DNA of 14,914 nt from Myxococcota bacterium (GTDB lineage: Bacteria; Myxococcota_C; UBA6777): the NCBI GenBank assembly GCA_023150835.1, contig JAKLKB010000156.1, forward strand, positions 1 to 14,914. Direction: 5' to 3'. Each line of letters starts with the position of its first letter. The stretch's first letter is position 1. Under the pieces are notes generated by a model that did no database searches, was not told the origin of the DNA, and saw nothing but the letters and a program-made list of their open reading frames with translations. Position numbers and translations under genes: made by a program. Positions 1 through 13,199 of the stretch are shown here, piece by piece.

Positions 1-96
1 AAACCCTCACCACTTCCGTCAATGTCAAGAAGGCCACCACTCGGCTGGCCGCACGAACCACCACCCTCACAACACAAAGAAAGGGCGGCGCTTCCT

Positions 97-116
97 CCCC
101 CCTCTAAAGAAGGGGG
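97..116. repeat. G/C-tract inverted repeat before the first gene
   Basis: CCCCCCTCT and AGAAGGGGG form a 9-bp stem with one C/A mismatch around an AA centre. It sits about 20 bases before the chosen start at 136. The downstream arm (AAAGAAGGGGG) is purine-rich and could pass for a ribosome binding site, but it is too far from the ATG for a standard one. It may be a hairpin in the mRNA leader, a small interspersed repeat, or the terminator stem of a gene left of the window; no T tract follows on the plus strand. Confidence 0.4.
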
Positions 117-135
117 TCTCCGCGCCTTAAAAACG

Positions 136-3063
136 ATGAATCCATCATTGTGGTTACGAGCCCGCTGGGCATTGCTATGCGGCTTGGCGCTGTTTTTCTT
201 ACAAGGGGCCAATTGTGGCGGTACTCCCGGCCCCACCAAATGCCTCGTCAACGCCGACTGCCCGGGGACACAAACCTGCATCAATTCGGTCTGTACGGAC
301 TCTGCCGCTGAAACCGGCAAAGAAACAGACTCCCAAGAATCCGCAGCAGAAACCACTTCTCCCGAAGAAACCGCAACCCCCGAAGAATCGGCTGTCCCCG
401 AAGAGGCCACCAGCACAGAAGGAACGCCCGAAGCGACCGAACCCACCACCGACGGAAGCCCAAGCGATGGCGATCCTGTCGAGCAAGATCCACAACCCGA
501 ACAAACCATCAAGGAAACACCGAGCGAGTCGACCTTCTTTGAAAACGTCACAGGCTTCTGCACCACAGGCGAAACCGCCACTTGCTACAACGGGCCTGTC
601 AACACCATCAGCATCGGCGAATGCAAAACAGGCATCAAGACCTGCGTGGGCGGCTTTTGGGATGCTGCGTGTGAAAACGAAGTCACCCCACAAGTCGAAG
701 TCTGCGACGGCAAAGACAACAACTGCGACGGCAAAGTCGACGAATCTTTCCCTGAAGACGGCCAAGTCTGCGACGTCCCCAACGCCAAAGGCCCCTGCAA
801 AAGCGGCGTCTCCAAGTGCCAAAACGGCCAGCTTGCCTGCGAAAGCAGCTATCAACCCAAACCCGAAGATTGCAGCAACAAGATCGACGACGATTGCGAC
901 GGCATCCCCGATGGCCCTCCTTGTGCTTGCACCACAGGCGAAACCCGCGAATGTTACGATGGTCCCGCAAATACCGCAAACAAAGGCATCTGCCGCCCGG
1001 GAAAACAAGAGTGTAAGTCCGGAAAATGGGAGGCATGTATCGGCCAAACCACCCCCCAAGCCGAGATCTGCGACGGCAAAGACAACGACTGCAACGGCCA
1101 GATCGACGAGGCATTCCCCGAAAAAGGCCAAAACTGCACCGACAGCACCCAAAAAGGCGAATGTCAAAAAGGCAGCTACACCGCTTGTACAAACGCAAAG
1201 CTTGTCTGTACATCAAGCGTCAAGCCCGCACCTTCCGAGATCTGCGACAACGGCAAAGACGACAACTGCGATGGACAGATCGACGAAAACCCCCCGTGTG
1301 TCTGCTCAGGCACCCAAACACGCGATTGTTATAGCGGACCCGCAAATAGCAGCGGCGTTGGCTTGTGCAAAAAAGGCAAACAAACCTGTGATGGCGGAAA
1401 ATGGGGCGCTTGCGTCGGCGAAGTCATCCCCGCAGCAGAGGCTTGTGATAACCAAGATAACGACTGCAACGGCAAGATCGACGATAACCTTTCGCGCTCT
1501 TGTTCTACCGCTTGCGGCTCAGGCACAGAGTTCTGTTCTGCCGGACAATGGGTCCAATGCAACGCCCCCCAAGTCGCCACCGAAGTCTGCAACAACAAAG
1601 ACGACAACTGCGACGGCAAAGTCGACGAAAACCTCACCCAACCCTGCTCCAACCAATGCGGCAAAGGCACAGAAACCTGTCAAAACGGCCAATGGCAAGG
1701 ATGCACCGCCCCCATCGCAAGCCCCGAAGTCTGCGACAACAAAGACAACGATTGCGACGGCCAGATCGACGACAACCTCACTCGCCCCTGCTACCCCGCC
1801 AACACCGCTGGTTGTGTGTTTGACCGCATCAAGAGCACATGGAACTGCGTTGGCGCTTGTCGGGCTGGCATCGAGATCTGCTCTGCCGGACAATGGAGCC
1901 TCTGTAGCCGAACGATCACCCCCACCACCGAAACCTGCAACAACCTAGACGACAACTGCGACGGCAAAGTCGACGAAACCTACACCAACAAAGGAGCGCC
2001 TTGCACCGTCGGCATCGGCGCATGCGTACGCAGCGGCACTTACGTGTGCAACTCCAAAGGCTCAGGAACCACCTGTTCTGTCACCGCAGGCACCCCGATC
2101 ACCGAAGCATGCCGCGACAACGTTGACAACGATTGCGACGGAACCATCGACGAGATCTGCGGTACACGCCATCACTTCGCAGCTACCGACGCGAGTTCTA
2201 CGACAGTGACCATCCGCAACCAGTACGGCATCGCCTCCATCTCCCGCGCTGGTACGGGCATCTACGACATCACCGCCGACAGCTCGGGTTTTGGCTGCGC
2301 CTATCGCCCCATCTTCGTCAGCCCCAATACCTCGCTGCTTCGCCCTACCAGCTTCGTTTGTTCGGGCGACAACTTTCGGGTGTACCTCGGTTCCAACAAT
2401 TCTGGAACACTTGCTGACGCGGGCTTTAACGTGGTCATCCCCCTCAAAACCACAGGCGCTGGCACCGCACGCACCAGTTCTTGCCCAACCACGGGCGCAT
2501 GCACCCTCGTCGGAAACTACAACATCACCGCAATCAACCACCTCGGAACGGGTGCCTACGAGATCATCTCTCCGCTGTGTGCAGACAGCAGCCAACCTGT
2601 CTTTGCACAGATCTATTCCAGCCTCCCGGGCTACACCGTCACAGGCTCCAATTGGCGAAGCAGCGGCAAATGCTACGTCCGTGTGTACGACTTCGCCGGC
2701 AATCTCCGCGATGTGAGCATCGGCGTATGGATCACCCCGAAACCCCTCCTGCCTTGGGCCATCACCAACGCAAGTGCCGGTATCGACGCCTCCCACAACT
2801 TTGGCGACCAAAACGCCCAATGGACCGCCAACAAACCTGCGACAGGGAATTACGACATCCGCTTCCCCGCGTGGGCCAACCCAAGCTCCGCCCTCACTCA
2901 AGTTCGCGGTAGCTCCGTTCAGTTTCAAGGCGTCTGGCTCGACAGCTACCCCACGATCTACGCCACCCCCGTTCGCCAAACATCGGGCGTTTACGTCTAC
3001 ACCCGCGATTTCAAAACCAACACCGCCGCAGACGCTCGCCTACAAACCGTCTTCGTCCAATAA
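136..3063 (+). CDS. Secreted MopE-like multi-repeat Cys-rich protein
   Basis: The protein is 975 residues from the ATG at 136. That start is preferred over an in-frame ATG at 22 because it opens directly on a signal sequence: Arg at 8 and 10, then a hydrophobic run to about residue 25. Cys27 follows, but the residues before it (QGAN) do not make a good lipobox, so lipoprotein versus signal peptidase I processing is open. Next come a small Cys module (about 35-52), a Glu/Pro/Thr/Ser-rich spacer (about 55-135), and Cys-rich modules with nine acidic motifs of the type CDGKDNNCDGKVDE (nucleotides 697-2160). These match the putative metal-binding motif family of MopE. The last third (about residues 676-975) holds three related segments of about 95 residues, each with a G-x-Y-[DE]-I core. 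The likely role is a surface or exported calcium- or metal-binding protein; the ligand is unknown. No good Shine-Dalgarno is seen. Confidence 0.85.
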   Translation: MNPSLWLRARWALLCGLALFFLQGANCGGTPGPTKCLVNADCPGTQTCINSVCTDSAAETGKETDSQESAAETTSPEETATPEESAVPEEATSTEGTPEATEPTTDGSPSDGDPVEQDPQPEQTIKETPSESTFFENVTGFCTTGETATCYNGPVNTISIGECKTGIKTCVGGFWDAACENEVTPQVEVCDGKDNNCDGKVDESFPEDGQVCDVPNAKGPCKSGVSKCQNGQLACESSYQPKPEDCSNKIDDDCDGIPDGPPCACTTGETRECYDGPANTANKGICRPGKQECKSGKWEACIGQTTPQAEICDGKDNDCNGQIDEAFPEKGQNCTDSTQKGECQKGSYTACTNAKLVCTSSVKPAPSEICDNGKDDNCDGQIDENPPCVCSGTQTRDCYSGPANSSGVGLCKKGKQTCDGGKWGACVGEVIPAAEACDNQDNDCNGKIDDNLSRSCSTACGSGTEFCSAGQWVQCNAPQVATEVCNNKDDNCDGKVDENLTQPCSNQCGKGTETCQNGQWQGCTAPIASPEVCDNKDNDCDGQIDDNLTRPCYPANTAGCVFDRIKSTWNCVGACRAGIEICSAGQWSLCSRTITPTTETCNNLDDNCDGKVDETYTNKGAPCTVGIGACVRSGTYVCNSKGSGTTCSVTAGTPITEACRDNVDNDCDGTIDEICGTRHHFAATDASSTTVTIRNQYGIASISRAGTGIYDITADSSGFGCAYRPIFVSPNTSLLRPTSFVCSGDNFRVYLGSNNSGTLADAGFNVVIPLKTTGAGTARTSSCPTTGACTLVGNYNITAINHLGTGAYEIISPLCADSSQPVFAQIYSSLPGYTVTGSNWRSSGKCYVRVYDFAGNLRDVSIGVWITPKPLLPWAITNASAGIDASHNFGDQNAQWTANKPATGNYDIRFPAWANPSSALTQVRGSSVQFQGVWLDSYPTIYATPVRQTSGVYVYTRDFKTNTAADARLQTVFVQ

Positions 3064-3215: not shown

Positions 3216-6035
3216 TCAGTTTGAGGAAGGGTGTTCTTGCGGGGATGGCGATGCTTCTGTGGAGAAGTACAAGCGGCCATCGCGTAGGGAGGCGTGGATC
3301 TGGCTTCCAGCGGGGAAGCGATCTTCGAGCAGAGCGGTGGAGAGGGGATCTTGGATCAGGTGAAGGATAGCGCGTTTGAGGGGTCTGGCACCAAAGGCGG
3401 GATCGTAGCCTGCTTCGACAAGAAAAGCTTGAGCTTCGGGTGAGACACACAAGGAGAGGGATTGTTCGCGAAGTTGGCGGTGGAGCCGTTCGAGTTGGAG
3501 GGTGCAGATGGTGTGCATCGCGGCTTTGGTCAAGCGATTGAAGATCAAGATCTCGTCGATGCGATTGAGGAATTCAGGTCGAAAGAAAGCGCGCAGTTCG
3601 GATTGGATGGTGTTGCGCAAGTCGTCGTCTTGCGTGCCTTCGGCTTCCAAGATCGCGGATGCACCGACATTTGATGTGAGGATCACAACCGTATTGCGAA
3701 AATCGACCGTACGCCCTTGGCTATCCGTCAAGCGCCCATCATCGAGCACTTGTAACAACAGCAAAAAGATATCTTGGTGAGCCTTTTCCACTTCATCGAA
3801 AAGGATCACGGCGTACGGGCGAGAGCGTACAGCTTCGGTGAGTTGCCCGCCTTCTTCGTGTCCTGCGTAGCCGGGGGGCGATCCCAACAGACGCGAAACG
3901 GCGTGCTTTTCCATAAACTCGGACATATCAAAGCGTAGGATGGCGCGTTCGTCATCAAACAAAAAGGCTGCAAGCGCTTTGGCGAGTTCGGTCTTTCCGA
4001 CGCCTGTGGGGCCAAGGAACAAAAACGATCCGATGGGGCGTTGCGGATCCGCAAGCCCGGAGCGCGAGCGCCGAACAGCGGCGCTTAAAGCGGCGATGGC
4101 TTCGGGCTGTCCGATCACACGATGTTCGAGGTGCCCTTGCATCTTGAGCAGCTTTTCGCGCTCGCTCTGCATCATCCGTGCTGCGGGGATGCCCGTCCAA
4201 TCCGCGATGATCTGCGCGATATCTTGCGCATCGACTTTTTCTTTTAACAGACGCTGCTCTCCCGCCGCCCCCAACAGCGCTTCGGCTTCGGCCAGCCGCT
4301 CACGTAGCTGTAGCACTTGGTTGTAGCGGATCTCTGCGGCGCGTTGAAAGTCGCCCTCGCTTTCGGCGTCCTTTTCTTCAAGCTCGTAGGCTTCGAGCTT
4401 TTCTTTGATCACGCGGATCTCGGAGAGAGCGCGTTTTTCACGGCCCCACTGGGCTTTTGCTTGCTCAAGCCGCTGTGCGATCTGTGCGGCCTCTTCGCGC
4501 AATGTGTGGATCTGCTGTTGTGCGCTGGCGGTTGTTTCGTGCAACAGCGCTTGTTCTCCCGTCTTTAGATGGATCAAGCGCCGATTCAGATCGTCGAGCA
4601 TTGGAGGCATCGCATCGATCGAAAGGCGCAGACGACTGGCGGCTTCATCGATCAGATCAAGGGCTTTGTCCGGCAAGGCGCGATCGGCAAGATAGCGCTC
4701 GGAAAGCTGAACCGCTGCACGCAAGGCATCATCCGAGATCTGGACGCTGTGATGGATCTCGTAACGCGCCTTCACGCCGCGCAAGATCGCGATCGCTTCG
4801 TCTTGGGTGGGCGACTGGACGGCGATACTTTGAAATAGACGCTTGAATGCAGGTTCTCTGTCAAAACGCTGTCGATAAGCTTCTGACGTGGTCGTGCCGA
4901 TGACTTGCACTTCCCCCCGCAGCAGCGCGGGTTTGAGCAACCCTGACGCATCGGCTACGCTGCTCCCTTCTCCCGCCTTGATCAACGTATGCAGATCGGG
5001 CAACACCAACAAGATCTGCCCCGCTGCATCGCGAACCTCCTGCAAGATCGCCTTCAATCTTTCCTCAAAATCTCCCCGATACTTGGCCCCCGCGATGACT
5101 GAACCCATCTCCAACACCACCAGACGCCGACGACGCATCTGGGCCGGCACATCCCCTCGCACGATCCGCAACGCCAAACCATGCAAGATCGATGTCTTCC
5201 CCACACCCGGCTCTCCCACCAACAATGGATTGTTTTTGTGCCGACGGCTGAGGATCTGCATCATCCAACGGATCTCGTTGTCTCGCCCGATTACTGGGTC
5301 CAATCCACCGCTCTCTGCAAGGTACGTCAAATCCCGACCATACTCCCGCAATGCCTCCCCCAGCGGTGGAGACATCTCAACATCCGAATCTTTCGAGGCC
5401 ACCGAATCTTTCGAGACCACCGAATCTTTCGAGACCACCGAATCTTTCGAGGCCACCGAATCTTTCGAGGCCACCGAATCTTTCGAGGCATCCGAATCTT
5501 TCGGGACCACCGAATCTTTCGAGGCCACCGAATCTTTCGAGGCATCCGAACCTTTCGAGGCATCCGATGTTCCTGACGATTGAATGGGCGTCTCATCCTG
5601 TGGTTGTTTGCGTAGGCTATGCAGGGCGCGACTGACGCGCAGGCGGTTGACTCCAAAAAAGCTTAATTGTTCGGCAGCGCGGCCTCCTCGCTCATCAAGA
5701 AGCGCCAAAAACAAATGCAGCGTAGAGACCCATTCTTCGCCGCGCTCTCGACATTCTCGTTCTGCGCGCTGCAATGTTCCCAACAGACGGGCCGAAAGAA
5801 AGACTTCTTCACGAGCTTTACCGCTGCCTGTGATCTCTCGAAGCAGTCGACGCTTCAGATCGTCGCGATCGACCCCAAGCATCGAGAGCAAACGCAACAA
5901 CATACCGCTGTTTTGGCAAAGCATCGCATACAGCAAATGTTCAGGCGATATCTCTGTACGGCCCGAACTTGCGGCGAGTTTTTCTGCTCCCAACACAGCC
6001 TCGGCAGCTTGACGAGAATAACGATCAAAATCCAT
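3216..6035 (-). CDS. clpB: ClpB-type AAA+ disaggregase with degenerate NBD1
   Basis: This 939-residue protein belongs to the Hsp100 disaggregases, which thread aggregated proteins through a hexameric ring using ATP. The start at 6035 (MDFDRYSRQA) matches the family N-terminus; an ORF extension to 6092 does not. Order: double Clp N-domain (1-142), a repeated hexapeptide linker (about 158-218), NBD1 with Walker A GEPGVGKT (274-281) and pore Tyr319, a full-length coiled-coil middle domain (about 475-600) that marks ClpB rather than ClpC, then NBD2 with Walker A GPTGVGKT (675-682), pore Tyr723, Walker B Asp747-Glu748, sensor Asn789, Arg825 and GARPLKRAI. NBD2 looks intact. In NBD1 the Walker B Asp-Glu pair is Pro346-Asp347, and the usual Arg pair is Arg399-Leu400. 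The linker makes it longer than typical ClpB (about 860-880). It lies 164 bp after the DUF1844 gene. No CIRCE element or clear heat-shock promoter is seen, and the Shine-Dalgarno is weak. A ClpB paralogue is possible. Confidence 0.92.
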   Translation of the reverse strand: MDFDRYSRQAAEAVLGAEKLAASSGRTEISPEHLLYAMLCQNSGMLLRLLSMLGVDRDDLKRRLLREITGSGKAREEVFLSARLLGTLQRAERECRERGEEWVSTLHLFLALLDERGGRAAEQLSFFGVNRLRVSRALHSLRKQPQDETPIQSSGTSDASKGSDASKDSVASKDSVVPKDSDASKDSVASKDSVASKDSVVSKDSVVSKDSVASKDSDVEMSPPLGEALREYGRDLTYLAESGGLDPVIGRDNEIRWMMQILSRRHKNNPLLVGEPGVGKTSILHGLALRIVRGDVPAQMRRRRLVVLEMGSVIAGAKYRGDFEERLKAILQEVRDAAGQILLVLPDLHTLIKAGEGSSVADASGLLKPALLRGEVQVIGTTTSEAYRQRFDREPAFKRLFQSIAVQSPTQDEAIAILRGVKARYEIHHSVQISDDALRAAVQLSERYLADRALPDKALDLIDEAASRLRLSIDAMPPMLDDLNRRLIHLKTGEQALLHETTASAQQQIHTLREEAAQIAQRLEQAKAQWGREKRALSEIRVIKEKLEAYELEEKDAESEGDFQRAAEIRYNQVLQLRERLAEAEALLGAAGEQRLLKEKVDAQDIAQIIADWTGIPAARMMQSEREKLLKMQGHLEHRVIGQPEAIAALSAAVRRSRSGLADPQRPIGSFLFLGPTGVGKTELAKALAAFLFDDERAILRFDMSEFMEKHAVSRLLGSPPGYAGHEEGGQLTEAVRSRPYAVILFDEVEKAHQDIFLLLLQVLDDGRLTDSQGRTVDFRNTVVILTSNVGASAILEAEGTQDDDLRNTIQSELRAFFRPEFLNRIDEILIFNRLTKAAMHTICTLQLERLHRQLREQSLSLCVSPEAQAFLVEAGYDPAFGARPLKRAILHLIQDPLSTALLEDRFPAGSQIHASLRDGRLYFSTEASPSPQEHPSSN
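5383..5562 (-). repeat. 18-bp tandem repeat, ten copies, inside clpB
   Basis: Ten contiguous 18-bp units occur (plus-strand form ACCGAATCTTTCGAGGCC, varying at only a few positions), with a partial unit after 5562. Eighteen bases is six codons, so each unit adds a hexapeptide near SKDSVA to the linker between the ClpB N-domain and NBD1. Because the period is a multiple of three and the unit has no stop, several other frames across it are also open; these are artefacts. Confidence 0.95.
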
Positions 6036-6100
6036 CGGTTGGCTCGCTTCTTGGCTTGCTCTGCGCGCTTGGGTTGGACGGTGCCGCCACACCGCGCAAG

Positions 6101-6212
6101 GGGTCTCGCGTCTTGACTTTTTCGACCTGATTCGTCGGGTGATCCGTGCGGAGACTGCCCCAAATCTCTGATTGAGTGGCAGATGATGGGCCTCGCGTCT
6201 TAGCTTTTTTTC
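6101..6212. repeat. Imperfect direct repeat pair around the clpB leader
   Basis: Two copies of GGG(T/C)CTCGCGTCTT followed by a short T run occur at 6101-6123 and 6188-6212, starting 87 bp apart. On the minus strand each reads as an A-run, then AAGACGCGAG, then a C-run. The second copy overlaps the stop codon of the DUF1844 gene, and the first lies in the leader of clpB. No function is evident; it may be a local duplication or a regulatory pair. Confidence 0.5.
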
Positions 6213-6574
6213 TGTTTGTCGACGTATTTCATCTGTAACTCAAATAACAACATCTGCAAGAGTTTTTCTTCTTCGCGCTCCAAGTTGCCACGGGTCTTTT
6301 CGCGCAACATCTCCAAGGTGTCGATCATGTGTTTGGCCATCGGCAGGTTGACTTCCGCTCCTTCCCCAAGGTGCATGATCGCGCTGTGGTGCAATGACAA
6401 CACAAACGTCGGAAAGTCCAGCTTGGGCAAGCGCAACCCGCGCAAACGTGCCTTGTCTTCTTCTGCCTTGGATGCCCGATCAAATGCCGCTTGGGCTGCC
6501 GAGGCTTCCTTTGATGCCGCTGCTTGGGCACGTTCGGCTTGGGTTTCTTTTTCGGCATCTTGCTGTGTGGTCAT
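6200..6574 (-). CDS. DUF1844 family protein
   Basis: This is a 124-residue soluble protein. Residues 1-48 are Ala/Glu/Gln/Lys-rich and probably form a charged helix. From about residue 50 the sequence matches my knowledge of the DUF1844 family: LDFPTFVLSLHHSAIMHLGE, then NLPMAKHMIDTLEMLREKTRGNL, then EEEKLLQMLLFELQMKYV. The molecular function of the family is unknown; no catalytic motif or membrane segment is visible. The ATG at 6574 is supported by the purine-rich GGAGGGAGAG just upstream (6579-6588 on the minus strand), one of the best ribosome binding sites in the window; a TTG one codon earlier is possible. It lies 164 bp before clpB on the same strand, so co-transcription is plausible but not shown. 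Confidence 0.85.
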   Translation of the reverse strand: MTTQQDAEKETQAERAQAAASKEASAAQAAFDRASKAEEDKARLRGLRLPKLDFPTFVLSLHHSAIMHLGEGAEVNLPMAKHMIDTLEMLREKTRGNLEREEEKLLQMLLFELQMKYVDKQKKS

Positions 6575-6711
6575 CAATCTCTCCCTCCATCTTCAACAAG
6601 GCTTCCTCTTGGCGCAACTTGCGATCTCGCTGCGCACGTCGCGAAGCAAAATCAAGCGAACCGACACACAGGGTTTTTGTGCGCCCGATGAAGCGTCTTG
6701 TTATACACGAA

Positions 6712-6996: not shown

Positions 6997-7156
6997 AAGA
7001 AGCGCAAGAAAAAAATCCCCACGAACGTTGCATCGAAGTGTCGACGCGAATCGACCCAGACAGCACGAAAGAAGCGCAAGAAAAAAATCCCCGCTAACGA
7101 GAAGGCAAGAAAAAAATCCCCGCTAACAAGAAGGCAAGAAAAAATCCCCGCTAACG
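6997..7156. repeat. Four-copy A-tract repeat cluster
   Basis: Four copies of a 28-31 bp unit, AAGAAG(C/G)GCAAG followed by 6-7 A and TCCCCGCTAACG, lie at 6997-7027, 7069-7099, about 7100-7128 and about 7128-7156. The first copy ends CCCCACGAACG and is separated by 41 bp; the others are contiguous. The last copy overlaps the stop codon of the membrane glycosyltransferase gene. On the minus strand each copy reads GCGGGGA then a run of T, like the tail of an intrinsic terminator. The head-to-tail packing without regular spacers rules out CRISPR. Confidence 0.8.
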
Positions 7157-7159
7157 CGG
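7139..7159 (-). terminator. Possible weak intrinsic terminator of the GT-C gene
   Basis: On the minus strand, CCGC-GTTA-GCGG (7159-7148) forms a 4-bp stem with a 4-base loop that includes the TAG stop codon. GGA and six T follow (7144-7139). The stem is short, so termination would be inefficient. The neighbouring repeat copies supply further T runs downstream but lack the CCGC arm. Confidence 0.3.
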
Positions 7160-9322
7160 CCTCTCTCGCATAGTCGGCGTGGTAGATGACCGTGTCCTCG
7201 GCTTCATCAACACCTGAATCGCCTCGGCCAATGGGCGTTTTCGCACCCGAACAAGCCCACCCTTGCGCATCGAAAACAGTACGGGTCGAAACAATTCTGG
7301 ATGCTTAACCACCCAAAACTGCTCCGTCGCGGGCGTCGGAGAAAAAAAGACGATGTAGTCCACGTTCTGTTTATGCAGACGCTTTAGCCACGACGCCCGA
7401 TCCGCCGCCTTCGTTCGACCTTCTCCGTAAGGAAGCACCTCGTCGCCCCGCGTGATCGGCACATAACAGACTTGGTGCTGCAAACGATTTCCCATGAACA
7501 AATACAACGGCCAATTGTCGCCGTTCTTCTCCACCGCCGAAGTCACCGCAACCCGAACCGCAGAACGCTTTGAGTCGACCAATTCTTTATCAAACGCCTC
7601 CGCAAGATACTTCCAATCCTTCGACGTGCGGTGATAGATCGCGCTCTCCCAAATCGCCCTCATCCGCGTTGCATCTTTGTACTCTTGAAGCCAAAAGCTT
7701 GCCCCCCACGCCGCACACAGCAGCACCACCCCAGCCCCCCAGACCCAACGCATCCAACACAGCAACACCACCCCACACATACACAACAGCACCACCCCCA
7801 AACCAACCCCCAACATCGGCCATTCCGAAGGACTCCTCTCGATCTGCCAAGGCACCGACAACGACAACAACACCCACACACCCACAACGCCCATCCCTAC
7901 GCGCTGCCACAACACGCCCTGCTTTTGTAGCCACCAAAACACCCACACGCACAGCATCACACACGGCAACAAAAAGCGTGCGCTCGTGAGCGGCAAGATC
8001 ATTCGAACCACCGAAAAATTCGGATGAAAATACAGCGCCAGATTCAACGCTACCAAACCGCCCCAAAACACCATCCGCCAAGGAAACACCCGCCATCCCG
8101 CCAACCACGCAGGAAAAAACAACAAAAGCATCCCCAACAACAACAAAGAAAACGGCTGCCCTTTCGTCCCATAAAAGAGATTGAACAAGTACAATTCTTC
8201 CCTTGTATAGGGCTTTAACTCAGGGCGCTCTCCGTAAAACTTTAGGGCCGGACTGGCCTCACCCAACCGAATCCCCGCAACCTTGACTTCCATCGGATAC
8301 AACGGCGTTCCTTTGCGTGACCATGTATGCCCAAACCACGGCAACACCATCGCCCCCCACAACATACTCACGACGCATACTTCCTTCCATCCCGACCACC
8401 CTCGACGCCAAAACAACAACCCCAACAAACCCATCCCTCCCCCCACCGACAACACCACCCCGTGAAATTTGATGCACGCAAAAACACCAAGCGCCAAACC
8501 CGAAAAATACAAGTCATGACGCTCCCCATATTTCTCGAACCGCACCGCAAACAGCAAAGCCAACGCAAAACACAACGAAAAACCTATCTCGCTATAACCA
8601 CTCCCCACAAGCTGCAACACCAATGGGATCGTCAAATAAAACAGCACCCCCACCACCGCCCATCCTGCACGCAACCCCAACTCCCGCCCCAACGCAAACA
8701 ACACCCAACCCAAAGCCCACCACTGCACGATGTCCACCAACGGCAGCCATACATCGCTGCGAAACGGCAACATCGCGAGGCTCAACAAGATATCCGAACC
8801 CGGCAAAAAGTACTTCTGATAACTCCATCCCCCCGGTGCTTCCATCGCGATCGGCCCCCCAGACTGGATCCACATCGCAGCCCGAGGCGCATGATACGTC
8901 AACGTATCCCAAGACAACGGAGGCAACAACAACACCCGTAGATCCTTCGCGATCGCCCACACCAAAAAAACAACAACCACCCACCCCCGCCACCCCCGAA
9001 AAAAAACACGACAGACCTCACCCAAAAACCAAACATCGATCTGTAAACTCCGAAGCGTCTCGCGCCAAGGCGACACAAAGCGTAACGCACCCACCACACC
9101 CAACCCCACCAAACCACTCACCCCCCACAACGAATACTGCCGCACAGAAAACAACAACCAAAACCCACCCACCGACAACCCCAACCCCACCACACACGTC
9201 GCGCTCCACAACACCCATGTATCCGCACGCCGCAACATCCGCAACGCCACACTATAAGAAACGTAACCCACCCCCAACACCCAAACCACCGCTAACCACC
9301 AACGCCACACCATCTCCAACAT
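7151..9322 (-). CDS. GT-C-type polytopic membrane glycosyltransferase
   Basis: This 723-residue protein has many hydrophobic helices across roughly residues 5-565, then a soluble C-terminal region of about 150 residues. Between early helices lies LSWDTLTYHAPRAAMW, with Asp139 placed like the catalytic Asp in the first outer loop of GT-C enzymes (GT39/GT83, ArnT-like). Those enzymes move a sugar from a polyprenyl-phosphate donor on the outer face of the inner membrane. This relation rests on topology and that motif, so the exact family, sugar and acceptor are not assigned. The start at 9322 is backed by GAGGAG about 7 bases upstream. Codons end mostly in G or T (GTG, TTG, GGG), in sharp contrast to the C- or A-ending codons of the plus-strand genes. 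It is divergent from the GT2-methyltransferase at 9541 and shares a 218-bp control region with it. It could alternatively be an O-antigen-ligase-like or uncharacterised membrane protein. Confidence 0.7.
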   Translation of the reverse strand: MLEMVWRWWLAVVWVLGVGYVSYSVALRMLRRADTWVLWSATCVVGLGLSVGGFWLLFSVRQYSLWGVSGLVGLGVVGALRFVSPWRETLRSLQIDVWFLGEVCRVFFRGWRGWVVVVFLVWAIAKDLRVLLLPPLSWDTLTYHAPRAAMWIQSGGPIAMEAPGGWSYQKYFLPGSDILLSLAMLPFRSDVWLPLVDIVQWWALGWVLFALGRELGLRAGWAVVGVLFYLTIPLVLQLVGSGYSEIGFSLCFALALLFAVRFEKYGERHDLYFSGLALGVFACIKFHGVVLSVGGGMGLLGLLFWRRGWSGWKEVCVVSMLWGAMVLPWFGHTWSRKGTPLYPMEVKVAGIRLGEASPALKFYGERPELKPYTREELYLFNLFYGTKGQPFSLLLLGMLLLFFPAWLAGWRVFPWRMVFWGGLVALNLALYFHPNFSVVRMILPLTSARFLLPCVMLCVWVFWWLQKQGVLWQRVGMGVVGVWVLLSLSVPWQIERSPSEWPMLGVGLGVVLLCMCGVVLLCWMRWVWGAGVVLLCAAWGASFWLQEYKDATRMRAIWESAIYHRTSKDWKYLAEAFDKELVDSKRSAVRVAVTSAVEKNGDNWPLYLFMGNRLQHQVCYVPITRGDEVLPYGEGRTKAADRASWLKRLHKQNVDYIVFFSPTPATEQFWVVKHPELFRPVLFSMRKGGLVRVRKRPLAEAIQVLMKPRTRSSTTPTMRERPR

Positions 9323-9374
9323 CCCTTGCTCCTCGATATCTTTGCCCTGCGCACCAAACCTTTCGCTTGCTCAT

Positions 9375-9391
9375 GCAAAATTTGCTATAGT
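9375..9391 (+). promoter_or_regulatory. Extended -10 promoter with adjacent palindrome
   Basis: TGC-TATAGT (TATAGT at 9386-9391) is a good extended -10 element for the plus strand; no strong -35 is seen. Directly before it GCAAAATTTGC (9375-9385) is a palindrome with a central A, which could bind a regulator. Transcription would start near 9398, leaving a leader of about 140 bases before the ATG at 9541. The site lies in the shared gap with the divergent membrane glycosyltransferase gene. Confidence 0.4.
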
Positions 9392-9540
9392 CCTGCGCGG
9401 CTTTTCTTTCCGACTTCCTCCTCTATGGGGGCCGATAGCACGCACGACCTAAAACAGCCCATCGCCTCCGAAACACTCAATAAGCTTTCCCTCTTCTTCT
9501 CTACCGACCACACCACAACCCAGCGCGCACAGGCACCGCA

Positions 9541-11001
9541 ATGAAAACAAAACCATCCCAAACAGACCTCATCCCAAATCTGTTGAGTATCTTGATCCCT
9601 GTTTACAACGAACGTCCCCTCGTTGGCGCCCTCGTACAAGATGTCCTACGCGCCGACCTCCCACCTCCGCTTCTGCGCGAACTCATCATCGTCGACGACG
9701 GTTCCACCGACGGAACCCGCGAACTTCTGCGCGAACTCACCAAAAAACATCCCGAGATCACCTACCGCGAACACGCCAAAAATATCGGAAAAACCGGCGC
9801 AATCCGCACTGCCTTAGAACTCGCTCGTGGTGAGTTTTGTATCTTCCAAGACGCCGATCTCGAATACTCACCACACGACTACAAATATCTCCTTGCTCCC
9901 TTGTGTTCGGGAAAAGCGGACGTCGTTTATGGCTCGCGTTTTCTCTCCCGTGAACAACGAAAAGTTCTGTTCTTTTGGCATTCTCTCGGAAACAAGTTCC
10001 TGACCTTGCTCTCCAACGCCATCACCGATCTCAACCTCACAGACATGGAAACGGGCTACAAAGCCTTTCGCACCGAGATCCTCAAAAGCATCCCCATCCG
10101 CTCCGAACGTTTCGGCCTTGAACCCGAGATCACCCTCAAAGTCGCCAAACGAAAACTCCGCATCTACGAAGTCCCCATCAATTATCACGGCCGCACCTAC
10201 GAAGAAGGCAAAAAAATCACATGGAAAGACGGGCTCCATACCCTTGGCGTCCTCCTCAAATACACCCTCAAAAACGATCTCCATAAAGACCACGGCGGGA
10301 CGGATGTCCTCCAAACCATGACCCAAGCCAAGCGATTTCACCGATGGATGGCCGACGTCATTCGCCCTTTTGTCAAAGAGCGTGTCATGGAAGTCGGCGC
10401 TGGAATGGGTTCCCTCACTCAGCACCTCCTCCCACAAAAACACTATGTCGCCACCGAGTTTGATCCATTCCATCTACAACAACTCAAACGCTTTGCCCAA
10501 AATCGACCCGATCTCGAAGTCGCATGGATGGACGCACAAGACCCTACCTGCTTCGCCCCTTACATCGGCCAGATCGACACCATCCTCTGTCTTAACGTCC
10601 TCGAACATATCCCCAACGCCTCCACAACACTCGCTAACTTTTACCACTGCCTCTCCCCCCACGGAAACGCGATCATCCTTGTCCCCCAAGGCCAATGGCT
10701 CTACGGCAGCATCGATCAAGCCGTCGAACACGTTAAACGCTATTCTCGACAAGACCTTGAAAGCGCCCTCCGAAACGCGGGCTTTGATTCGATCCTTTTG
10801 TTTGACTTCAATAAGGTCGGTGTGTTGGGCTGGTATCTCAACGGCAAGCTCCTTGAACGCACACAAATGCCCAGCATCCAACTCGGCCTCTATGATCGCA
10901 TGGTCGGCTTATGGAAAAGACTTGACCGATCCTTGCCGTGGCATGGTCTTTCACTCATCGCGATCGCACAAAAATCCAGCCCCACCGCCCATCAACACTG
11001 A
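9541..11001 (+). CDS. Fused GT2 glycosyltransferase / SAM methyltransferase
   Basis: This 486-residue bifunctional protein has an N-terminal half (about 12-245) that is a GT2 glycosyltransferase of the dolichyl/undecaprenyl-phosphate-sugar synthase type: LSILIPVYNE, VDDGSTDGT (51-59), the metal-binding D104-A-D106, GSRF (131-134), TGYKAF, and GRTYEEGKKITWKDG near 217-231. The C-terminal half (about 262-482) is a class I SAM-dependent methyltransferase: motif I VMEVGAGMG (282-290) and LNVLEHI (351-357). Fused GT2-methyltransferases are known in bacteria. The likely pair of reactions is transfer of a sugar to a polyprenyl phosphate or glycan and methylation of a product; the substrates are not readable from sequence. 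No transmembrane helices are evident, so it probably acts at the inner face of the membrane. No good Shine-Dalgarno precedes the ATG, and a short upstream frame ends by overlapping it (ATGA). It converges with the small ORF at 11160. Confidence 0.88.
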   Translation: MKTKPSQTDLIPNLLSILIPVYNERPLVGALVQDVLRADLPPPLLRELIIVDDGSTDGTRELLRELTKKHPEITYREHAKNIGKTGAIRTALELARGEFCIFQDADLEYSPHDYKYLLAPLCSGKADVVYGSRFLSREQRKVLFFWHSLGNKFLTLLSNAITDLNLTDMETGYKAFRTEILKSIPIRSERFGLEPEITLKVAKRKLRIYEVPINYHGRTYEEGKKITWKDGLHTLGVLLKYTLKNDLHKDHGGTDVLQTMTQAKRFHRWMADVIRPFVKERVMEVGAGMGSLTQHLLPQKHYVATEFDPFHLQQLKRFAQNRPDLEVAWMDAQDPTCFAPYIGQIDTILCLNVLEHIPNASTTLANFYHCLSPHGNAIILVPQGQWLYGSIDQAVEHVKRYSRQDLESALRNAGFDSILLFDFNKVGVLGWYLNGKLLERTQMPSIQLGLYDRMVGLWKRLDRSLPWHGLSLIAIAQKSSPTAHQH

Positions 11002-11429: not shown

Positions 11430-13199
11430 TTAGAGAAGTTCTTCGATCAAGCGAAAGCTATTTTGGCTGTTTTGACGAAACGTCCAAAGATAAGCCCGCG
11501 AGACGTAGCCTTCTTTTTTGATCTCGATCTGTACGCGTTTGCCGACTTCACCACGAATTGTCAAGGGGGTAGCCCCCATTTTTTTCCCATCCACAAACAC
11601 AGACGCCCCGTTGGGGGTGGTCGCAATGCGGTATTGTACCAGCGCAGCCGCCTCACGACGCGGCGTTGGCGTCACCTCGCGGGGGGCAGGCTCCGAGGTG
11701 CGTGTCGGCACGTCGCGTGAAGACGCAGCAGCGGGGTCTCGGGTGCGCTGCCCCCGCGCAACTCGCGCTTTTTTTCGCCTGACTCGCCTCCCCCACCGCC
11801 TGTTTTGTCGAGGTTTGCGCTTGACTTCGGGTTCCTCCTCTTCTTGGTCGGCGACCTTTTTCTGCCCGTCTTCACCGCTGTTGCTTGCGCCTTCCTGCGC
11901 CGAAGTTGCCGAACCCAACGGAATCTCCCGAACTTCAGGGGCGGGTGCTGCTTTCTTCGACTCTTCCATCCATGACGCAACACGCGGCTTGGGCTTGATC
12001 GGCTGTGGTGGCGGATACAAGGACCGAATCCCCACAAAACCACCCAACAACAACAGCGCCGCCACAGAAACACCGATCATCATCGAACGCAATGGCCGCG
12101 CAGGCGGAATCACGGGAGCGATCATCTTGTATTGGATATCGCGGCGTTTTGGCATCGGGAACAACCCCGTCGCTTCGCCGCTATCGTGATAGATATCTTC
12201 CCAGATCGGATCGATGCCGATCGAGCGCATCGCTTGTTCCAGCGTCTGATTCATTTCGTGCGCACTTTGAAACCGATGCGCGGGATCTTTGGACAGCGCC
12301 TTCGCAACGATCGCCTCCAAGATCTCGGGATATTCGCGATCAGGATTCAGCTCTGCCATGCGCGGTGGCAACGCCTCCAACTGCAGCCGCATCGTGTCGC
12401 GATTCGATCCGCCTTCAAACACCCGCTGCCCCGTCAACATCTCCGCTAAGATGATCCCGCACGCATACAGATCCGCCCGATGATCGATCCGATCCAACTC
12501 ACCCCGCACCTGTTCGGGCGACATATAATACGGCGTACCGATCGCCGCACCTCGCTTTTGCAAGTCGTCCGTTTTCTCCCCTTGCTGTTGAAAGTGCTTC
12601 CCCACGATGTGCGCGATCCCAAAATCCACGATCTTTACCAACAATCGCCCCCGACTCCCCGTCGTCAAGATGATGTTCTCTGGCTTCAAGTCCCTATGCA
12701 CGATCCCCTTTTCGTGCGCATACGCCAACGCATCCAACAACTGTAACATCAGCGCCAACACCCATCCCCACTTCAAATCCCGATTCAACCTCCACAACCG
12801 ATACAGACTCTTCCCCTCCAACCACTCGCAGATCAGATACGGTCCTAGCTGCTCCGATACCCCAAAGTCGATCACTTGCACCACGTTCTCGTGACGCAAC
12901 TCCGCCATCACCAACGCCTCGCGCTGGAACCTCTCAAAAAATTTCTCCTCTTTTGCCCACTGCGGCTGCAACAACTTCACCGCAAACGAATTCTTCAACG
13001 TCACGTGTTGGGCCTCATACACCGCACCAAAACCGCCCTGACCCACCAACCGCGTCAGTTGATAATTCCCCACCACCAGCGCTTCTTCCGACCAATCCTT
13101 CCCACCCTCCAAGGCCACCACCCCCACCGACGGATATCCCCCTTGCTTTGGAGCTTGCAGCCGAGAACTCGCTTTTTCTTCATGCTTCAGCGTTGTCAT
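11430..13199 (-). CDS. Membrane-anchored Ser/Thr kinase with PEGA domain
   Basis: This 589-residue Hanks-type kinase carries all catalytic motifs: glycine loop GQGGFGAV (53-60), Lys75 in FAVK, Glu94, HRDLKPEN with Asp170, DFG at 192-194 and GTPYYMSPE (221-229). The catalytic domain spans about 46-320 and should be active. A single transmembrane helix lies at about 373-391. Then follow a Pro- and charge-rich linker (about 396-530) with a very basic stretch (RRWGRRVRRKKARV), and a C-terminal PEGA domain (about 533-580, ATTPNGASVFVDGKKMGATP) predicted to be extracytoplasmic. This suggests a sensor kinase whose outer part contacts the cell wall or another surface ligand. The ATG at 13199 has AAAAGG about 8 bases upstream. 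It is divergent from a second kinase and followed by a small co-directional ORF. Confidence 0.93.
   Translation of the reverse strand: MTTLKHEEKASSRLQAPKQGGYPSVGVVALEGGKDWSEEALVVGNYQLTRLVGQGGFGAVYEAQHVTLKNSFAVKLLQPQWAKEEKFFERFQREALVMAELRHENVVQVIDFGVSEQLGPYLICEWLEGKSLYRLWRLNRDLKWGWVLALMLQLLDALAYAHEKGIVHRDLKPENIILTTGSRGRLLVKIVDFGIAHIVGKHFQQQGEKTDDLQKRGAAIGTPYYMSPEQVRGELDRIDHRADLYACGIILAEMLTGQRVFEGGSNRDTMRLQLEALPPRMAELNPDREYPEILEAIVAKALSKDPAHRFQSAHEMNQTLEQAMRSIGIDPIWEDIYHDSGEATGLFPMPKRRDIQYKMIAPVIPPARPLRSMMIGVSVAALLLLGGFVGIRSLYPPPQPIKPKPRVASWMEESKKAAPAPEVREIPLGSATSAQEGASNSGEDGQKKVADQEEEEPEVKRKPRQNRRWGRRVRRKKARVARGQRTRDPAAASSRDVPTRTSEPAPREVTPTPRREAAALVQYRIATTPNGASVFVDGKKMGATPLTIRGEVGKRVQIEIKKEGYVSRAYLWTFRQNSQNSFRLIEELL

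Follow-up and report, generated by a model that had tools for sequence, protein, structure and literature searches.

A lineage-wide ClpB paralogue whose first ATPase domain lacks conserved catalytic residues

The need of ClpB and Hsp104 for two ATPase rings has been probed almost wholly through engineered mutants. ClpB is driven mainly by AAA2: in the derepressed K476C background, blocking hydrolysis in AAA1 cuts the substrate-stimulated ATPase activity 1.7-fold, and blocking it in AAA2 cuts it 7.6-fold (PMC6593972). Derepressed E. coli AAA1 mutants (E279A/R331A) retain more activity than AAA2 mutants, although their disaggregation is still strongly reduced (PMC6593972). In cross-linked Thermus NBD1-M dimers, kcat falls by 90% with R323A and by 35% with R322A, and R322 was interpreted as chiefly an interface stabiliser; when the cross-link is absent, the R322A and R323A single mutants each lose about 1000-fold (PMC4239642). 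In E. coli ClpB, Walker A mutations in AAA1 cause oligomerisation defects (PMC5319980).

No published natural ClpB with a dead NBD1 was found in the open literature searched, which is no proof of absence. Human CLPB/Skd3 has no NBD1 at all. A ClpB-type NBD2 works there without an NBD1 motor (PMC7343390, PMC9934407). The D1 domain of Pex6 has a degenerate Walker A, Walker B and Arg finger, binds ATP without hydrolysing it and serves assembly, the motor of Pex1/Pex6 being D2 (PMC10518020).

The window, by which we mean the whole stretch of 14,914 nucleotides analyzed here, encodes a ClpB-like protein (Table 1). Pfam matches, an AlphaFold model and PDB matches all gave it the order Clp_N, AAA, lid, M-domain coiled coil, AAA_2 and D2-small. 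The closest solved structures were ClpB, Hsp104 and ClpC. Across the two motor domains the identity to ClpB structures is approximately 49-52%, and the match to solved E. coli ClpB scores 800.8 bits (E 1.5e-239). The ClpB equivalog model of NCBIfam (TIGR03346) scored highest of all models, at 1052.3 bits, yet below its curated cut-off of 1232.1. Of two catalytic AAA+ sites, each with a Walker A, a Walker B Asp-Glu and an Arg finger, only that of NBD2 is complete, NBD1 lacking the Asp-Glu and the second Arg. Because the protein falls short both of the equivalog cut-off and of two active sites, it should be called a ClpB paralogue that descends from the ClpB family, not ClpB proper. We rejected an identity as ClpV (TIGR03345, 725.6 bits against a cut-off of 884.95) and likewise as ClpA, ClpG or ClpK, beneath whose model cut-offs the paralogue scores. 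By alignment, equivalents of E. coli K476, E500 and Y503 are present in the M-domain, and their bearing on DnaK-linked disaggregation is only suggestive. The repeat in the linker encodes SKDSVA-type hexapeptides; a relative of the same genus has SGTSG-type repeats instead.

Table 1. Features of the paralogue and its conserved neighbours, with nucleotide positions in the window and residue numbers in the protein.
Feature	Position	Strand	Residues	Remarks
clpB-like paralogue, proposed name clpB2	3219..6035	-		939 aa, ATG at 6035
ORF frame holding the paralogue	3216-6092	-		
Clp_N			1-143	
Variable linker			145-222	
NBD1			226-411	
NBD1 small/lid			412-485	
M-domain coiled coil			486-600	
NBD2			601-834	
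D2-small			835-939	
18-bp tandem repeat, 9.9 copies	5384..5561	-		Encodes fast-evolving N-domain/NBD1 linker
NBD1 Walker A, GEPGVGKT	5193..5216	-	274-281	Intact in window protein
NBD1 pore loop, AKYRG	5073..5087	-		Tyr319 kept; Phe in G003 orthologue
Degenerate NBD1 Walker B, ILLVLPDLHT	4986..5015	-	341-350	Pro346-Asp347 replace Asp-Glu
NBD1 trans Arg pair	4836..4841	-	399-400	R399 (= E. coli R331) kept, L400 (= R332) lost
NBD2 Walker A, GPTGVGKT	3990..4013	-	675-682	Intact
NBD2 Walker B, ILFDEVEK	3783..3806	-	744-751	Intact
DUF1844 protein	6200..6577	-		Directly upstream of paralogue; Pfam 1e-23; neighbour in all five phylum genomes
Small conserved protein, 86 aa	11160..11420	-		Same neighbourhood
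Ser/Thr protein kinase with PEGA domain	11430..13199	-		Pfam; conserved neighbour

The original prediction, made from the DNA letters, was that the NBD1 Walker B had lost its acidic pair. The codons and the alignment agree: read on the minus strand, 4992-5015 gives ILLVLPDL, with CCC at 4998-5000 for Pro346 and GAT at 4995-4997 for Asp347, and these residues align with D278 and E279 of E. coli ClpB, where the motif hhhhDE is expected. At least two base changes are required to turn the Asp into Pro. The predicted Arg399-Leu400 aligned with E. coli R331/R332, and the NBD1 Walker A, pore Tyr319 and NBD2 motifs, described as intact, are all present in the window protein, so that the description was correct in each detail checked. 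The sensor-2 and Arg residues of NBD2 are intact as well, and T383 in the sensor-1 segment of NBD1 is kept by all copies. Outside the clade described below, every one of 112 full-length relatives has D at 346, E at 347 and R at 400, so chance does not account for the window protein's residues.

Five genomes in our collection belong to the phylum of the window: the window genome (G000), G001 from the same genus, G004 from another genus, G003 from a third, and G002. The orthologues are 93% (G001), 64% (G004) and 58% (G003) identical to the window paralogue, and their Walker B segments read VLPDLH, VLPDIH and VLPELH, respectively. Pro-[Asp/Glu] is therefore conserved across three genera, where relatives all with Asp-Glu would have spoken against the prediction. 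The Arg-pair segment reads KRLFQ in G001 and G004 and QRLFQ in G003, the second Arg being lost in each. In G002 the orthologue is present as two pieces at contig ends, and the first piece stops just short of the Walker B, which is thus unread. The Walker A Lys of NBD1 is found in the window's genus only, having been replaced by Arg in G002 (GEPGVGRT), G003 (GEPGVGRS) and G004 (GTPGVGRT). Every copy that could be read has thus lost two catalytic residues, the Walker B Asp and the catalytic Arg, and the Walker A Lys is gone from some.

We defined conserved columns as those conserved to at least 95% in 112 other proteins, which gave 80 columns in NBD1 and 89 in NBD2. The window protein is altered at 21/80 of the NBD1 columns and 4/89 of the NBD2 columns, and 10/80 and 1/89, respectively, are altered in all four orthologues; for the canonical ClpB copies of the same phylum the figures are 1/80 and 1-3/89. 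The columns at which all, or nearly all, of the four copies are altered lie in clusters: the Walker B strand (344-347), the next loop (352-365), the sensor-1 segment (376-386) and the Arg pair (397, 400). Over the whole gene, dN/dS between G000 and G001 is 0.124; by domain it is 0.067 in NBD1, 0.022 in the lid, 0.010 in the M-domain and 0.027 in NBD2, and in the linker it is 0.89. Given its dN/dS of 0.067, NBD1 is maintained by purifying selection despite its lost catalytic residues.

A structure was predicted with AlphaFold as a monomer without nucleotide. An input of 5 sequences gave a poor model and one of 77 sequences a good one, with a mean pLDDT of 85.6 and values of about 90 through most of NBD1. 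NBD1 has the usual AAA+ order of strands and helices in this model, and Pro346 comes immediately after the strand formed by residues 341-345. The NBD1 fold is thus predicted to be retained, the monomer model being mute on catalysis and nucleotide.

A second, canonical clpB had been proposed as something to look for, and it was found in the window genome and in the four other genomes of the phylum. The copy in the window genome is complete, with FIDEMHT and RRF, and is located on contig C157; the paralogue is on C100, and the two genes are not adjacent. The G002 copy is interrupted by a contig end. Paralogue and canonical ClpB are 45-50% identical. We constructed a maximum likelihood tree of 49 proteins with SH-aLRT support, in which the exact root was not resolved and long branches urge caution. 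The four degenerate proteins formed one clade (support 100) and the canonical copies from the same genomes a separate clade (100). Since each of the two clades extends across the phylum, the split between them predates the divergence of the three genera; a recent duplication of canonical ClpB inside the window's genus was rejected on the same grounds.

The fetched loci yielded 172 NBD1 matches, of which 157 had DE, RR and Lys. Another 11 combined P[DE] with R-L and were redundant views of the four orthologues, one was the partial G002 piece, and three were distant Clp-like proteins from the window genome. A DNA pattern in which the NBD1 pore loop precedes a Walker B with the Asp codon replaced matched in exactly 4 of 386 genomes, these being the four orthologues, and a companion pattern with Ala, Gly or Val at the Walker B Asp had no match in the 386 genomes. 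As a positive control, the canonical form of the pattern matched in 85 of 98 genomes. Both lost-Asp patterns demand the second acid and the His, so that other kinds of NBD1 loss would escape them. Separately, three large double-AAA Clp-like proteins of 1258, 1397 and 1014 aa are encoded close together in the window genome (locus L179, 2156-16282; G000:C70:104155-118281), near a VIT-domain protein. Their first AAA domains are very divergent (26-28% identity), with odd Walker B and Arg residues, and similar sets occur in G003 (C94) and G004 (C1).

We also examined the genomic context of the paralogue. Upstream and on the same strand, all five genomes of the phylum have the DUF1844 protein, the small conserved protein and the PEGA-domain Ser/Thr kinase, of which the G002 piece includes only the C-terminal part. 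A second kinase comes next wherever the contig extends far enough. Downstream, G002, G003 and G004 have a transglutaminase-like membrane protein, which was not found adjoining the paralogue in the window's genus. Conservation of this neighbourhood suggests that the paralogue has a dedicated role apart from the general heat-shock response. Two genes at 7151-11001, encoding a membrane protein without a Pfam match and a fusion of a GT2 glycosyltransferase with a methyltransferase, separate the DUF1844 and small-protein genes in the window genome only. Because these neighbours are adjacent in the four relatives, the region resembles an insertion, of about 4.5 kb. Three copies of a 29-bp repeat are present at 7070-7156. 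A large protein encoded at 22-3063 of the window carries repeats of a MopE-type metal-binding motif (CDGKDNNCDG) and probably a lipoprotein signal.

Together, these observations point, with a probability that we put at roughly 0.7, to a specialised ClpB paralogue in which NBD1 is catalytically dead or nearly so and is kept as a structural and regulatory collar, AAA2 being the sole driver. NBD1 would bind nucleotide without hydrolysis, or with very slow hydrolysis, and the retained Arg, with any bound nucleotide, would stabilise the hexamer. It would hold substrate while NBD2 pulls, and NBD2 would perform all ATP-driven threading. The resulting unfoldase would work more slowly, or under different regulation, on other substrates beside the normal ClpB. 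Read against the published ClpB mutants, from which the biochemistry is drawn, the observed sequence and its evolution make this collar-plus-single-motor model plausible. The paralogue keeps the equivalent of Thermus R322 and loses that of R323, a pattern that would fit a ring needing assembly, not hydrolysis. Because E. coli AAA1 Walker A mutants have oligomerisation defects, the Lys-to-Arg change in three genomes makes one ask what keeps those hexamers together; an Arg-type Walker A might nonetheless retain nucleotide, or NBD2 might be enough for the hexamer. The original proposal of a one-engine disaggregase or a regulatory paralogue gains support from the separate canonical clpB, the conserved Pro-Asp/Glu and the degeneration confined to NBD1 under purifying selection. 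However, the paralogue may not be a disaggregase at all, since mutating the AAA1 Walker B of E. coli ClpB strongly lowers disaggregation.

Slow hydrolysis by NBD1 may be possible, as Asp347 (Glu in G003) occupies the position of the catalytic Glu. Taken further, NBD1 might be an altered yet working ATPase in which this residue is the catalytic carboxylate, Mg is otherwise coordinated and the kinetics are changed. An acid is indeed kept at 347 (D, D, D, E), as are T383 in all copies and the Walker A in the window's genus, but no orthologue read has the Mg-coordinating Asp, which is Pro throughout; the catalytic Arg has gone, and in 3/5 genomes Arg has taken the place of the Walker A Lys. With several independent steps away from catalysis, we regard a working NBD1 as unlikely. 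Somewhat less probable still is a regulatory subunit that forms mixed hexamers together with the cell's canonical ClpB, tuning its activity or blocking it in part. Both genes occur in 5/5 genomes, and NBD2 and the M-domain are conserved, as such a subunit would have it; the two proteins, however, have only the 45-50% identity noted above, and their genes, on C100 and C157, are not adjacent. Absent catalytic residues could also mark a decaying gene or an error of sequencing or assembly, a reading that is refuted. Genomes of three genera, assembled independently, share the change, and their VLP[DE] argues against a sequencing error; open frames, low dN/dS for the gene and for NBD1, and a conserved neighbourhood argue against a pseudogene.

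The paralogue shares with canonical ClpB/Hsp104 the domain order, an intact NBD2, the pore Tyr and the M-domain. It differs from canonical ClpB in an NBD1 without the Walker B Asp, the second trans Arg and, in the window protein, the catalytic Glu, and in forming its own clade. As in the engineered AAA1 mutants (E. coli E279A, R331A; Thermus E271Q, R323A), a block of hydrolysis would be expected in ring 1 only, with ring 2 as the motor (PMC6593972, PMC4239642, PMC5319980). Unlike them, it is natural and fixed in a lineage, with Pro for the Walker B Asp and Arg in the Walker A of 3/5 genomes. Like Pex1/Pex6, it combines a degenerate Walker B and Arg finger in one ring with an intact other ring (PMC10518020), although Pex1/Pex6 is a peroxisomal heterohexamer of another AAA+ clade, with other N-domains and no ClpB M-domain, making the parallel functional only. 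It resembles human CLPB/Skd3 in what may be reliance on NBD2, whereas CLPB/Skd3 carries ankyrin repeats and the paralogue keeps the NBD1 fold.

More tentatively, and with rather less confidence than in the reading of NBD1 itself, the lineage may possess a natural 'single-engine' Hsp100, with AAA1 as a conserved pseudo-ATPase collar: a dedicated AAA2-driven unfoldase coupled to a PEGA-type Ser/Thr kinase locus and distinct from the general disaggregase. The lineage represents a natural experiment in which ring 1 has been stripped of catalytic residues and the interface Arg, pore loop and M-domain have been kept. It offers ready-made proteins for asking if a single motor ring is enough and if DnaK dependence changes when ring 1 is dead.
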